Shown here piece by piece: positions 7,391 through 13,895 of a DNA stretch of 52,150 nt. The position numbers and the translations under genes are program-made. The notes under the pieces were generated by a model that saw only the letters and a program-made list of their open reading frames with translations, ran no database searches and was not told the origin of the DNA. This DNA is from Isosphaeraceae bacterium (GTDB taxonomy: Bacteria > Planctomycetota > Planctomycetia > Isosphaerales > Isosphaeraceae), in NCBI GenBank assembly GCA_025356475.1, contig JANXSX010000041.1, positions 1 through 52,150 on the forward strand, given 5' to 3'. Numbering within the stretch: position 1 is the stretch's first letter; each line of letters begins with the position of its first letter.

Positions 7391-7832
7391 AGGTCACCCC
7401 TTGGCTATCGATTCCTCATCGTCTCGGTTGCGCTCCTTGCAACGAAAATCGCATTTTCCATGATACCATCAAGATTGCCGCTGGGGAGTAGCCCGGATAT
7501 CAATTGTTTCTGGTTGAGTTCATCTTTCGTCGATCGCGAGGTACGAGCGATACCACCGGTCGCGGCGGATTTCCCTCGTGGCCCTCTAATGTCGCACAAC
7601 GATTCGATTCCAAGCGTTTGGGGTTGAACTCGTAAGCCTCAATGAGCCTTGGATTTGGGGAAAATGAGACGATTGTGCCGAAATATTCTATCCGGTGATT
7701 CGTCCTATTTCGAATGGCGTCGTGGATGAGACGCGACTCGACGAAATTCGGCTGAGAAAGCTGTTGAGTTTTGATTCGTTGGCGATTCGAAGAGATTGCA
7801 ATTCGCTGCCGTGCGACATTAGAAGGCCACCA
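7391..7832. other. Gene-poor stretch before the tandem repeat
   Basis: About 440 nt with lower GC than its surroundings. Short open frames exist on both strands, but none has a convincing ribosome site or recognisable product. No tRNA or clear terminator is seen. Confidence 0.4.
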
Positions 7833-7877
7833 CGCGTTTTTCGTCGAAGGTGGCGAAGGATAGTCTCGGGTCGCATA

Positions 7878-8015
7878 GCGCAATCTGGGGCTAGCTTGGG
7901 AGGCCCTCTTCACCCAGAGTACGCTTCGCGGCTATCGGCTGTAATATTGAACGCGTTCGACGTTATGGTCATGAAGCGGCTGGGCTCCCTTTGCCCTCAC
8001 ACTAAAAAGTGCTGA
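7878..8015 (+). other. Conserved open frame in repeat flank, copy A
   Basis: A 45-codon plus-strand frame ending CPHTKKC-stop has an exact-length partner in copy B. Of the eight base differences between the copies, seven fall at third codon positions in this frame, as expected if the frame had been under protein-level selection. The frame is open upstream to 7695, but that part is not shared with copy B, and no ribosome site is evident. It may be the tail of a degraded gene. No family is recognised. Confidence 0.3.
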
Positions 8016-8089
8016 CGATAGAACTTATCGGAAACCGGTGGCTCGGCTCTCCCGAAATCCGAAAGTTCTTTCCACACGGTTATGAAGAC

Positions 8090-8776
8090 CTAGACACCCG
8101 CGCCCTCATAGAAACTTGAGATCCAAACGCTGAGCCTGTAGCAAGGCATAACGAGAAGCCAAAAGACACCCAACGCACGACCCGTCCGGTCGATCCAGGT
8201 CTTCTCGGCACGCCAACAGCCTGCCATCCCCATGATCAGCCAGACGGCTGCCACGACCGCAGTGCTAGAACTGCCATGCACTACTCCAACGACCTCCCGT
8301 ACGGATAACTCTCTAACCCAAGCTGCCACCGAATCCAACGACTGGAGGTCGTAACAAGTAAGACCTCCAAAAAATCGGGTCGTTAGTGCGCCATAAAAAA
8401 AATCAAAGACCCGGTCGACACAGATCGCGACCACTGCTGTAAATCCGGGGCGACATGCCAGCTCACGGCGCGTTGTGCGGTAACGCGTAAGGTTTAACGC
8501 CAGGATCGCAATCGACCACGTTAAAGCCACTGATACCACCCAGTTCTGAATAATATCACCTGGTAAAGGGGTGCCTGGTCCTTGCATAGATCGAGCTTGC
8601 ATGGATCGAGATACCTCTCGCCCTATCGCAAGCCCTACTGCCACGATGGCCGACGAATTCCAGTATGCCGAGTCCCATCGAGATACCTCTCGCCCCAACG
8701 CAAGTCCAACTGCGGTCGCCGCGACGAGCACGATGGCATCGATCAAGTTGAATCGTTTCTGGTTCGGATTATCCAT
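8090..8776 (-). CDS. Small polytopic membrane protein, paralogue A
   Basis: A 228-residue integral membrane protein with about five hydrophobic segments, starting MDNPNQKRFNLIDAIVLV. It is the diverged twin of the gene at 9193-9768. The ATG at 8776 matches the twin's start and has AAAGGAAG upstream; an open frame continues to 8821 but is not shared. The N-terminal region contains an internal duplication: AVGLALGREVSR recurs as AVGLAIGREVSR, about 25 residues later, followed by a doubled SMQ-type segment. The function is unknown; KRFxLIDAxVLVAATA N-termini recur among planctomycete membrane paralogues (family knowledge). Confidence 0.72.
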   Translation of the reverse strand: MDNPNQKRFNLIDAIVLVAATAVGLALGREVSRWDSAYWNSSAIVAVGLAIGREVSRSMQARSMQGPGTPLPGDIIQNWVVSVALTWSIAILALNLTRYRTTRRELACRPGFTAVVAICVDRVFDFFYGALTTRFFGGLTCYDLQSLDSVAAWVRELSVREVVGVVHGSSSTAVVAAVWLIMGMAGCWRAEKTWIDRTGRALGVFWLLVMPCYRLSVWISSFYEGAGV

Positions 8777-8961
8777 GCATGACCTTCCTTTGGGTTCTGA
8801 GCTCATCCGGCATATGACCACCTTCTCCCGAGGGTAAAGGCACGGACTTTGAAATGCTCATAACCTCTTGTCCGGACCGTAGATACCCAGCCGGATGGCA
8901 TGTTCAAAGTCCCTCGCGTTTTTCGTCGAAGCTGGCGGAGAATAGGTTCTCGGGTCGCAGA

Positions 8962-9192: not shown

Positions 9193-9768
9193 CTAGAAAC
9201 TTGAGACCCAAACCATGAGCCAGTAGCCGGGCGTAATGAGAAGCCAAAAGACACCCAACGCGCGACCGGTGCGGTCGATCCAAGAGTTCTCAGCACGCCA
9301 GCAGCCAGCCATCCCCGTACTCAGCCAGACTGCTGCCACGATCCCATTGCTAGAACCGCCGGGCACTACATTCGTGACCGACGCTGAGATTAATTGCATA
9401 AGCCAAGATGCCACTGAGTCCAACGACTGGAAGTCAACATCGATTAAACCTCCAAAAGGTCCGAGCGGCAGTGCGTAAAATACAAATTCCAAGACCCTGT
9501 CGATACAGATCGTGACCACTGCTGTGAATCCGGGGCGACAGGCAAGCTCACGGCGCGTTGTTCGATAACGCGTAAGGTTTAACGCCAGGATCGCAATCGA
9601 CCACGTTAATGCCACTGATACCCCCCATTCTACAAGATCAGCTAGGAAATGGCTGCCAGGTTCTGGCTGCCTACAGACTGTTCGCCCCAACGCAAGTCCA
9701 ACCGCAGTCGCCGCAACGAGCACCATGGCATCGATCAAGCTAAATCGTTTCTGCTTCGGATTATCCAC
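9193..9768 (-). CDS. Small polytopic membrane protein, paralogue B
   Basis: A 191-residue membrane protein starting MDNPKQKRFSLIDAMVLV, paralogous to the protein encoded at 8090-8776 and probably closer to the ancestral form because it lacks the internal repeat. Shared blocks include VSVALTWSIAILALNLTRYR, TRRELACRPGFTAVV and MAGCWRAE. About four to five membrane-spanning segments can be drawn. Its ATG is preceded by AAAGGAAG as in the twin. It ends a few residues earlier than the twin, at VWVSSF. The function is unknown. Confidence 0.72.
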   Translation of the reverse strand: MDNPKQKRFSLIDAMVLVAATAVGLALGRTVCRQPEPGSHFLADLVEWGVSVALTWSIAILALNLTRYRTTRRELACRPGFTAVVTICIDRVLEFVFYALPLGPFGGLIDVDFQSLDSVASWLMQLISASVTNVVPGGSSNGIVAAVWLSTGMAGCWRAENSWIDRTGRALGVFWLLITPGYWLMVWVSSF

Positions 9769-11368: not shown

Positions 11369-12424
11369 TCATCCGCACAGTACCACAGCCAGAGAACCTT
11401 GTCGTGGACAGACTCGGCCAATGATCGTGGCCGCTTTCGCACCGCGAAGGTTAAGTTCAGAAATGAGCCGAGGGGCTTGGGCAGGATCGACGGCGATCAG
11501 TAATCCGCCCGAGGTTTGGGGATCAAACACATACCCAACCTTAGGGGATTCGATTCCATCGATCTGGATCTGGTCCGCCAAAAACTCTCGGTTCGCTTTG
11601 CTCCCGCGGGTGTGGTACTTCGCGACGGCAAGTGGCTCCGAGCCGGCGATGACGGGCAAGGCGGCGACATCGAGTTCGAATGTGGTTGCTGAACCTTCCG
11701 CCATCTCGAACGCGTGTCCCCCAAGCCCAAATCCCGTCACATCGGTCAGGGCATGGACTCCGCCCGAAGCTCGAATGGCATCGCGTCCGATCACGTTCAG
11801 GCTGATCATAATGTCAATCGCAGCGGCGAGAACGTCAGCGGGGCACTCGCCTTTCTTGTTGGCAGTGGTGATGAATCCTGTGCCGAGCGGCTTGGTTAGG
11901 ATGAGCATGTCTCCAACCTTCGCTCCCGCGTTGGTCAGAACATCGGCTGGATTCACGAGACCGGTCACGCTGAGCCCGAATTTCACTTCGGTATCACGCA
12001 CGGAGTGACCCCCAACGGTCACAGCTCCGGCCAATGCGACCCGGTCCGCCGCGCCTCGCAAGATCTCGGCGAGGATCGTCAGGGGCAACTCGTCGTCGGG
12101 GAAGCCGACAATGTTCATCACAGTCAGCGGCTGTCCATTCATGGCATAGACGTCGGAAAGCGCGTTCGCAGCGGCGATCTGTCCATAGATGAACGGATCG
12201 TCGACCAGCGGCGGGAAGAAGTCCAGGGTCTGGACGAGCGCCACCCCTTCGGCGATGCGGTAGACACCCGCGTCGTCGCTGGTCTCGGTCCCAACCAAGA
12301 GGTTGGGATCACTCGACCTCGGAGGCAAGTCACGCAGAACCTGCGCGATCCCTGTGGGAGAGAGCTTACCTGCTCACCCCGCACAGTTCGCATAATCCAT
12401 CAATCGCTTTTGACGTCCCGACAT
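11369..12424 (-). CDS. selD: Selenophosphate synthetase, Sec-containing (in-frame UGA)
   Basis: SelD makes selenophosphate from selenide and ATP, the selenium donor for selenocysteine. Family segments are clear: NLLVGTETSDDAGVY, AAANALSDVYAMNGQP, GGHSVRDTEVKFGLSVTG and LTKPLGTGFITTANKKGE. A conventional call starts at a TTG (12328) and loses the active site. Reading upstream in the same frame gives ATG (12424), MSGRQKRLMDYANCAG, then TGA (12376-12374), then AGKLSPTGIAQVLRDLP. The UGA falls at residue 17, the position of the catalytic Cys17 of E. coli SelD, which is Sec in many species. With readthrough the protein is 351 residues, normal for SelD. A SECIS-like hairpin follows the UGA. It lies 30 nt after a second UGA-containing selenoprotein gene. 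No selA, selB or tRNA-Sec is in the window. Confidence 0.93.
12330..12348 (-). promoter_or_regulatory. SECIS-like hairpin in selD
   Basis: On the transcript, TCGCGCAG pairs with CTGCGTGA (8 bp, one G-U) around the 3-nt loop GTT. The loop starts 34 nt after the UGA and begins with G. Bacterial SECIS elements recognised by SelB lie in the coding region just after the UGA, with a small apical loop carrying a G in the first two positions; this fits. Confidence 0.7.
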
Positions 12425-12454: not shown

Positions 12455-12691
12455 TCATGTGAGGTGTTCCTCAATTGCTTTGAGGATCTCCTGCTCGTTG
12501 GGGAATACCCCGGTCTTGAGCTTCGAGTAGAGCAGCTTTCCGCCCAATTTGATCTCAAAACAGCCCCCTTTTGAGGGGACCAGCTCAACGCGAGTTAGCC
12601 TTCGCTTGAAGCGAGGAAGCACCTGGGCCATCAGACTGATGGCTTGAGGTTCGTAGTTTCAGAGAGCGCAGTATTCCAGCTTCAAATCCAT
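12455..12691 (-). CDS. SelW/Rdx-type selenoprotein with CxxU motif (in-frame UGA)
   Basis: This 78-codon gene is broken by a TGA at codon 11 (12661-12659) and is invisible to standard calling. Read as Sec, the product begins MDLKLEYCALUNYEPQA and continues with VELVPSKGGCFEIKLGGK, LLYSKLKTGVFPNEQEIL and a final helix. That is the thioredoxin-like Rdx (SelW/SelT/SelH) layout: a CxxU redox motif right after strand 1, then the GG-FE strand and the FP turn. Rdx proteins act in thiol redox reactions; the partner is unknown. The start is firmly supported by a 10-nt Shine-Dalgarno match 4 nt upstream. A SECIS-like hairpin lies 16-32 nt after the UGA. It directly precedes selD in the same operon, which strengthens the Sec reading over a pseudogene. 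Confidence 0.9.
12627..12643 (-). promoter_or_regulatory. SECIS-like hairpin in the SelW-type gene
   Basis: GCCATCA pairs perfectly with TGATGGC (7 bp) around the loop GTC. The loop begins 23 nt after the UGA and its first base is G, as in the selD hairpin. Stem length, position and loop base all suit a bacterial SECIS element. Confidence 0.72.
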
Positions 12692-12695
12692 AGCA

Positions 12696-12705
12696 CACCT
12701 CCTTT
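12696..12705 (-). promoter_or_regulatory. Full-length Shine-Dalgarno of the SelW-type gene
   Basis: AAAGGAGGTG on the transcript is a complete complement to the usual 16S rRNA 3' end, 4 nt before the ATG at 12691. It is the strongest ribosome site I noticed in the window and fixes the start of the UGA-interrupted gene. Confidence 0.85.
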
Positions 12706-12711
12706 ATTGAA

Positions 12712-12727
12712 GAATTGTTCACAATTC
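12712..12727. promoter_or_regulatory. Inverted repeat between transporter and selenoprotein genes
   Basis: GAATTGT-TC-ACAATTC is a perfect inverted repeat (7-bp arms, 2-nt spacer) overlapping the stop of the upstream transporter gene and lying about 20 nt before the SelW-type start. It resembles a dimeric repressor operator in form. It may regulate the selenoprotein genes, or be chance. Confidence 0.35.
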
Positions 12728-13895
12728 ACGCACTGACATCTTCGCCTTGATCGTACTGTCCGCGATTCAGCTTGAGCGGAAGTGCCCCAGCCTCACCGGA
12801 ATCGCCCCCTTCGACAGGTTCAATGGGGGGATGCCAGTCGACGCTCATGAGCTCGGCCCAGCGGTAGAGTTCCGGAACGTTCTGGAAAACGAGTTTGAGA
12901 CTGACGGTGATTGGCATCGCCAAAATCAGGCCGACAAGTCCCCAGAGATAGCCCCACACCAGACAGGCGATCAACACCGTTGTCCCATTGAGATCGAGCG
13001 ACCTGCCCATCACCCAAGGGGTGACCACATACCCTTCCACTCCCAGGATCGCCAGATACATAGAGACCACGATCAGGGCGTCGCCAACAGATCCATTTTG
13101 GCCGAGTGCGACCATCGTGGGGACCGCCCCACCGATCACCTGGCCGACGTAGGGGACGAAGTTCGTGAGCGCAGCGAGTAGCCCAAGAGCGAACGGAAAA
13201 CGAACACCTCGGCTCCAGAGCGCCAACGCGACGACCGTTCCCATTCCGAGGTTGATCACAGTCCGGGCGGCCAGATAGGAACGGATCTGGCGGGTCAAGG
13301 CTTTGAGTTCTCGTTCCGCAACCCGAGCCTCGCCTGGGGAACTCGCGAAGAAGCGGATCAGCTTGGGGGTCAGCATTTCACTCTCGGCGAGTAAGAAAAG
13401 GACCAGGACTAAAATCACGAGCCCCTGGACCAGCCACCCCATCAAGTCACTCAGGCCGTAGCTGAGATTTGAGATCAACAGCCGTGAATTCGTATCGCCA
13501 AGCTCATCGATCGTCCCCGGGTTGGGCAGGATCGTTCGGAGTGACGGGTGGTCCTTGACGATTGTCGACAACTGCGAACTCAGCTTACTGGAGAGTGCTT
13601 GGAGATCACCCGGTAAGGTGATCGTAGCCTGGATCAGGCTCTCCGCCGTGAGGCTCGCGACATAGAGACCAATCACGACCGTCCCAAGAAAGAGTAGCAC
13701 GGCGGCACCAGTCGGCCCGAGTGGGAAAATCCGCCGGAGGAGCGTCGTGATTGGGGACAGAACGCACGCCAAAACCAAGGCGAGTGCGATTGGGACCAGG
13801 ATCACTCTCATCAGATAAATTGACGCGACGACACCTAAGACCGCAAGGATCATCAGCGACAACGTCGCAATCTTCGAGTTCCGATCCACGCCCAT
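12726..13895 (-). CDS. AI-2E family transporter
   Basis: A 389-residue polytopic membrane protein of the AI-2E (PerM/TqsA-like) family. Hydrophobic helices at the N-terminus (LMILAVLGVVASIYLMRVI and VPIALALVLACVLSPI) are followed by a soluble region, then the conserved block around FPFALGLLAALTNFVPYVGQ and the C-terminal GYLWGLVGLILAMPITV. Members export small molecules or ions; substrates range from autoinducer-2 to Na+ or unknown, so none is assigned. The last about 35 residues are a polar cytoplasmic tail. It lies upstream of the two selenoprotein genes on the same strand, with its stop 34 nt before the SelW-type start, so they may share a transcript. Confidence 0.9.
   Translation of the reverse strand: MGVDRNSKIATLSLMILAVLGVVASIYLMRVILVPIALALVLACVLSPITTLLRRIFPLGPTGAAVLLFLGTVVIGLYVASLTAESLIQATITLPGDLQALSSKLSSQLSTIVKDHPSLRTILPNPGTIDELGDTNSRLLISNLSYGLSDLMGWLVQGLVILVLVLFLLAESEMLTPKLIRFFASSPGEARVAERELKALTRQIRSYLAARTVINLGMGTVVALALWSRGVRFPFALGLLAALTNFVPYVGQVIGGAVPTMVALGQNGSVGDALIVVSMYLAILGVEGYVVTPWVMGRSLDLNGTTVLIACLVWGYLWGLVGLILAMPITVSLKLVFQNVPELYRWAELMSVDWHPPIEPVEGGDSGEAGALPLKLNRGQYDQGEDVSA

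Follow-up and report, generated by a model that had tools for sequence, protein, structure and literature searches.

SelW-like (SELENOW-like) bacterial selenoproteins share the domain described by the profiles PF10262 and TIGR02174, a CxxU redox motif, a UGA codon at the U site and a bacterial hairpin downstream of that codon. Selenide water dikinase, SelD (TIGR00476), also occurs in selenocysteine (Sec)-containing forms. Some selenoproteins, SelL among them, carry two Sec residues in a UxxU motif. A 2026 review (PMC13188914) gives SELENOW-like proteins as CxxU proteins with one Sec, lists a Prx-like protein, an FmdB-family protein and a metal-binding protein as UxxU families, and mentions operonic clustering of SELENOW-like genes with peroxiredoxin; a Prx-like 2 family is likewise described as UxxU in PMC2398784. 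Full sets of Sec-insertion genes have been reported in planctomycetes, I. pallida included (PMC4807772).

Here we describe a SelW-like gene in the window, by which we mean the whole 52,150-nt stretch of DNA from an Isosphaeraceae bacterium that was analysed. The gene has the domain, the CxxU motif, the UGA site and the downstream hairpin of the known SELENOW-like proteins, and differs from them in being a planctomycete member located directly upstream of a Sec-type selD gene. This selD has UGA at a Cys site with a hairpin after it and differs in nothing essential from other Sec-containing SelD genes; what sets it apart is its position as the downstream neighbor of the SelW-like gene. From the sequence and its relatives we conclude with high confidence that this is a genuine SelW-like (Rdx) selenoprotein gene in a planctomycete, with the UGA at codon 11 read as Sec, and the SelW-like gene and selD almost certainly form a selenoprotein pair. 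The family and the mechanism are already known and the planctomycete member is new. No earlier report of a SelW-like–selD pair was found in the literature searched, from whose coverage most subscription papers fall out.

The SelW-like and selD genes

The features of the locus, all of which lie on the minus strand, are as follows.

12726..13895, minus strand: AI-2E family transporter gene, upstream neighbor (profile match)
12696..12705, minus strand: Shine-Dalgarno sequence AAAGGAGGTG of the SelW-like gene (sequence)
12455..12691, minus strand: predicted SelW-like/Rdx selenoprotein gene, 78 aa, CxxU, stop TGA at 12457-12455 (kept in relatives)
12659..12661, minus strand: in-frame UGA, codon 11 of the SelW-like gene, predicted selenocysteine (sequence and relatives)
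12627..12643, minus strand: bSECIS-like hairpin GCCATCA-GTC-TGATGGC, 7 bp (sequence, fold, conservation)
11369..12424, minus strand: selD, selenide water dikinase, with its own in-frame UGA and stop TGA (TIGR00476, 4.1e-108)
12374..12376, minus strand: in-frame UGA, codon 17 of selD, CAGU (aligns with Cys in Cys-type relatives)
12331..12347, minus strand: bSECIS-like hairpin of selD, CGCGCAG-GTT-CTGCGTG (sequence, fold, conservation)

The preliminary description had placed a 78-codon frame with a 10-nt Shine-Dalgarno match at 12455-12691 without stating its strand. The frame is real and runs on the minus strand; the plus strand contains no open frame over the same positions. Translated from 12691 to 12455 with the UGA read as a residue, its 78 codons give MDLKLEYCAL-U-NYEPQAISLMAQVLPRFKRR..., and the Shine-Dalgarno match AAAGGAGGTG is found at 12705-12696. 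The placement of the UGA within the CxxU redox motif of an Rdx fold also holds, the motif being C8-A-L-U11. As had been anticipated for standard gene finding, the mechanical ORF list contains only wrong-frame ORFs over this stretch, and it gives selD only from a TTG beyond the UGA of that gene. The list misses the SelW-like gene and truncates selD because UGA is treated as a stop.

For profile searches of the SelW-like protein, Cys was put in place of U. The protein matches the Pfam Rdx profile PF10262 with E = 8.1e-19 (68 bits, cut-off 22.6), in an alignment that covers positions 3-73 of 74, and TIGR02174 with 6.1e-17 (61.7 bits, cut-off 34.2); the similarity to Rdx proteins on which the preliminary description had staked the gene is therefore present. 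Against the equivalog NF041051 (SelTWH_Campy) it scores 81.4, just below the cut-off of 88, and so it was not filed in that subfamily. A profile built from 27 relatives and searched against solved structures gave the SelW-related structure 2fa8 as the best match (2.4e-14) and also detected mouse SelW, 2npb (1.7e-5). An AlphaFold model of the protein was obtained with a mean pLDDT of 90.7. In Foldseek this model aligned best with SelW-related structures (TM values up to 0.91); a weak resemblance to thioredoxin, which is expected for the SelW fold, was also seen. The modelled protein has the thioredoxin-like SelW fold. A plasmid search with the protein returned one distant match only.

The selD gene follows the SelW-like gene after a gap of 30 nt, and both contain an in-frame UGA. 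Its product scores 361.3 bits against TIGR00476 (cut-off 125) and, read through the UGA, starts MSGRQKRLMDYANCAG-U-AGKLSP. The UGA occupies the site at which other SelD proteins have the catalytic Cys. A following Sec-type selD had been put forward as support for Sec insertion in the SelW-like gene; the gene is indeed present with its UGA, and its part had been understated, as it appears to be a second selenoprotein gene with a hairpin of its own. Elsewhere in the window, two adjoining minus-strand ORFs (8090-8821 and 9193-9768) have similar N-termini (MDNP.QKRF.LIDA...) and resemble tandem copies of one gene for a small protein.

Conservation of the UGA codons and hairpins

A SelW-like match was found in 34 of 99 genomes, the window's own included, and 30 fetched loci were read. 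Codon 11 is TGA in all 30 and the CxxU motif is present in 29. The remaining locus (L047:1483-1719, minus strand) keeps the UGA; Arg replaces the Cys of the motif, and other odd changes are present. This gene may be decaying or badly sequenced. A wider set, which overlaps partly with the 30 loci, consists of the best 80 of 112 loci on named genome contigs. Many of these 80 belong to Planctomycetota, others to Poribacteria and Acidobacteria/Blastocatellia, and one record is labelled Bacteroidales; the closest named records among the best 80 of 112 are Isosphaeraceae and Aquisphaera insulae. Here the site codon is TGA in 79 and Cys (TGC) in one. The preliminary description had named close relatives with a sense codon other than Cys as evidence against the gene, and no such codon occurs at position 11 in either the 30-locus or the 80-locus set. 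The single Cys form (L094:3501-3731) retains six of the seven stem pairs described below and may have lost its UGA recently, or its hairpin may be maintained by some other constraint. Within the phylum, SelW-like matches occur in at least 139 of 392 genomes, some of them being distant forms without UGA; five distant Rdx matches of this kind were read (L163-L167), and the site is Cys in three and Gly in two.

The SECIS-like hairpin that had been proposed for the SelW-like gene is found as a 7-bp stem at 12643-12627. It starts 15 nt after the UGA codon, and minimum-energy folding of the window sequence recovers it. At the equivalent positions after the terminal UGA of the gene, one of seven pairs can form. 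An Rfam search of the window gave no family match, so the hairpin was examined directly. In relatives the usual hairpin is GCCGTCA-GTT-TGACGGC. All seven pairs are present in 26 of the 30 relatives (window included), which corresponds to 205 of 210 pairs in total, and in 24 of the 30 the minimum-energy fold of 57 nt lacks at most one of the seven pairs. The peptide encoded under the hairpin, AVSLTA, is strongly conserved. We compared the stems with a null of 2000 synonymous redraws under local codon usage, which gave on average 2.1 full stems per 30 loci and never more than 7. The Ser codon of the loop is AGT in 29 of the 30 loci, the remaining one, L047, not encoding Ser, while among 501 local Ser codons the share of AGT is 5.8%. 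Of the 80 loci in the wider set, 35 form seven pairs, 24 form six, 17 form five and 4 form fewer, and the loop codon is AGT in 74, AGC in 5 and GGT in 1.

Covariation was assessed in an alignment of 35 rows (33 distinct), which comprises the 30 loci and five more picked from the wider set for stem variation and is thus biased to change. In this alignment 97.8% of cells pair and the covariation score reaches 0.169, whereas no slid structure exceeds 47.2% and 0.073, respectively. Double changes, which involve 2 pairs and 4 cells, are matched in number by the control slid by +3 columns. Individual compensated changes are seen in the window, where G-C is replaced by A-U, and in L044, where C-G is replaced by G-C. 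As the +3 slide equals the double-change counts, the strong evidence for the hairpin comes from synonymous constraint at the sequence level, to which covariation adds a little.

The selD genes provide a second comparison, for which the best 30 loci of the selD match list were used and a fixed stem position was scored in all. The site is UGA in 19 and Cys in 11. All 7 bp of the fixed stem can form in 15 of the 19 UGA genes and in none of the 11 Cys genes, and by this count the full selD stem goes with UGA. Three of the remaining UGA forms have six pairs, and the fourth, L072, has a 7-bp hairpin at a shifted position. Of the Cys forms, six have the CAGC motif in common with the UGA forms; among these six, L049 has six of seven pairs and L067 has five. 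The other five (L073-L077) carry a different motif, RAGCAAK, with Cys in all five, and some of their genomes, such as G074, also hold a SelW-like UGA gene.

Selenocysteine machinery, gene order and alternative readings

The absence of selA, selB or selC from the genome had been given as a further ground for rejecting the gene. The window genome is 99.98% complete, and selA, selB, selC and selD are all found in it. Its tRNA-Sec has a UCA anticodon and scores 71.9 bits; a second match to the tRNA-Sec model above cut-off is a tRNA-Leu according to ARAGORN. The selA (486.7 bits, cut-off 268) and selB (378.9 bits, cut-off 242) genes adjoin on contig C90. The genome also contains a formate-dehydrogenase-like gene (L185, contig C146, approximately 7631-8374, minus strand) with an in-frame UGA in the context ...NQARIUHSSTVPG..., which we take to be the usual Sec site of formate dehydrogenase. 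After this UGA a hairpin, GTGCCC-GGTCT-GGGCAC, can be drawn by eye and is absent from the 57-nt minimum-energy fold. The window genome thereby holds at least three likely selenoprotein genes, namely the SelW-like gene, selD and the formate-dehydrogenase-like gene.

As a marker of the Sec trait we used selA over its curated cut-off, which was found in 51 of the 99 genomes, the counts being taken by hand from two lists. A SelW-like match is present in 34 of the 51 genomes with selA and in none of the 48 without it (Fisher p = 4e-14, the genomes not being independent). In three of the 51 (G048, G071 and G086) the SelA scores are little above the cut-off and SelD has no match; these may not be true selA genes.

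In 18 of the 30 relatives read, the SelW-like gene has a selD gene downstream on its own strand; the gap, measured up to where the aligned selD begins, is 9-285 nt. Fifteen of these selD genes have UGA and three have Cys. In the wider set selD follows in 27 of the 80 loci and lies opposite in 1, and none is seen in 52, some flanks being short. The upstream AI-2E gene, which 12 of the 30 loci have inside their 1.5-kb flank, is possibly the first gene of the SelW-like/selD transcript. A role for it as a selenium transporter was considered and set aside for lack of support: we do not read it as selenium-related because genomes in which selA does not reach the cut-off also have close orthologues of it (among them G008, G020, G026, G036, G040, G042 and G044).

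In the mechanism we propose, SelB and tRNA-Sec would decode the UGA at codon 11 as Sec, guided by the hairpin 15 nt downstream, and the final UGA of the gene, which is without such a hairpin at that distance, would end translation. The product would be a small thioredoxin-like, thiol-dependent redox protein in which C8-A-L-U11 cycles between the selenenylsulfide and the thiol/selenol forms. Since the SelW-like gene lies directly upstream of the Sec-containing selD, the two are probably carried on one transcript and both selenium-dependent, such that the supply of selenophosphate and the SelW-like selenoprotein would each depend on selenium.

UGA does act as a stop at this locus, where it ends both the SelW-like and the selD frames, and codon 11 might be imagined to be a true stop too, with the frame beyond it a decayed pseudogene or a chance similarity. 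This is barely credible for a frame that aligns with nearly all of the Rdx profile, that keeps its UGA in every one of the 30 relatives read while the protein is still conserved, and whose hairpin is conserved beyond synonymous expectation. Hardly more credible is that a reassigned code or a suppressor tRNA makes the UGA read as Cys or Trp. The frame and the family would suit Cys at the site, and L094 has a Cys codon there; because UGA terminates both genes, however, global reassignment is unlikely, and the complete Sec machinery with its UCA tRNA-Sec, the co-occurrence of the SelW-like match with selA and the lack of the full stem where selD has Cys all point to Sec. It is also very unlikely that the hairpin is a mere by-product of the AVSLTA peptide and not a bSECIS element. 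The strong conservation of that peptide would fit such an origin, as would the six pairs retained in the Cys form L094, the full stem in only 35 of the 80 wider loci and double-change counts that do not exceed one slid control. Yet redraws that preserve the peptide never gave more than 7 full stems against the 26 observed, the cells of the stem pair more than twice as often as those of any slid structure, compensated changes occur in L018 and L044, and the full stem is found in none of the Cys-type selD genes.

An alternative of another kind accepts Sec insertion and places the SelW-like protein specifically in selenium metabolism, for example in passing reduced selenium to SelD, instead of in general redox chemistry. 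We regard this as unlikely, if appreciably less so than the readings above. The selD gene downstream on the same strand in 18 of the 30 and 27 of the 80 loci speaks for it, as does the restriction of the SelW-like match to genomes with selA among the 99. On the other side, a Sec protein would be confined to Sec genomes regardless of its function, and in 52 of the 80 loci no selD is seen in the flanks, some of which are short.

SelW-like relatives with two UGA codons

In two planctomycete MAGs named Centralia the SelW-like gene (L119:3501-3743 and L149:3501-3743) has UGA at codon 8 in addition to codon 11, so that the motif reads UxxU and not CxxU. The two proteins are 86% identical, and with the UGA codons replaced dN is 0.07 and dS is 0.50; given these values the protein looks constrained despite its two UGAs. 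Both genes have a strong Shine-Dalgarno sequence, five of the seven stem pairs and a UGA-type selD downstream (the selD codon of L119 is TGA), and selB scores above cut-off in both genomes. The stem is present in the 70-nt fold of L119 and not of L149, and in the 57-nt fold of L149 and not of L119. The next closest matches, L174 and L175, are CxxU. L192 (minus strand), from a third genome, also has UGA at codon 8; beyond its first 27 nt it does not differ from L148, which is CxxU, possibly as a result of recombination or mis-assembly. Further two-UGA candidates were rejected: the four among the phylum matches listed that had two UGAs only (L158-L161) are all CxxU, with a second UGA that is C-terminal and likely the stop, and L193, another gene listed with two UGAs, was read as CxxU.

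From these sequences we consider it reasonably probable that in some planctomycete relatives both redox residues are Sec, with one hairpin after the second UGA, which would make the product a candidate diselenide-forming SelW-like protein. The UxxU selenoproteins already described (Prx-like, FmdB-family and metal-binding) have two Sec residues in the same arrangement as L119, L149 and L192, and they belong to families other than SelW-like. No report of a UxxU SelW-like protein was found in the literature searched, a body that leaves most subscription papers outside its coverage.

The SelW-like gene and selD are an adjacent pair that is mis-called by the ORF list, and the same is expected in many planctomycetes, given the SelW-like matches in 34 of the 99 genomes and in at least 139 of the 392 of the phylum. 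The selD genes, which occur with and without UGA and whose full stem tracks the UGA, offer a natural case on which to test rules for bacterial SECIS elements. If the UxxU reading is true, one bacterial SECIS would decode two UGAs 9 nt apart, and the UxxU relatives, if real, would allow a direct test of such decoding of two close UGAs by a single element.
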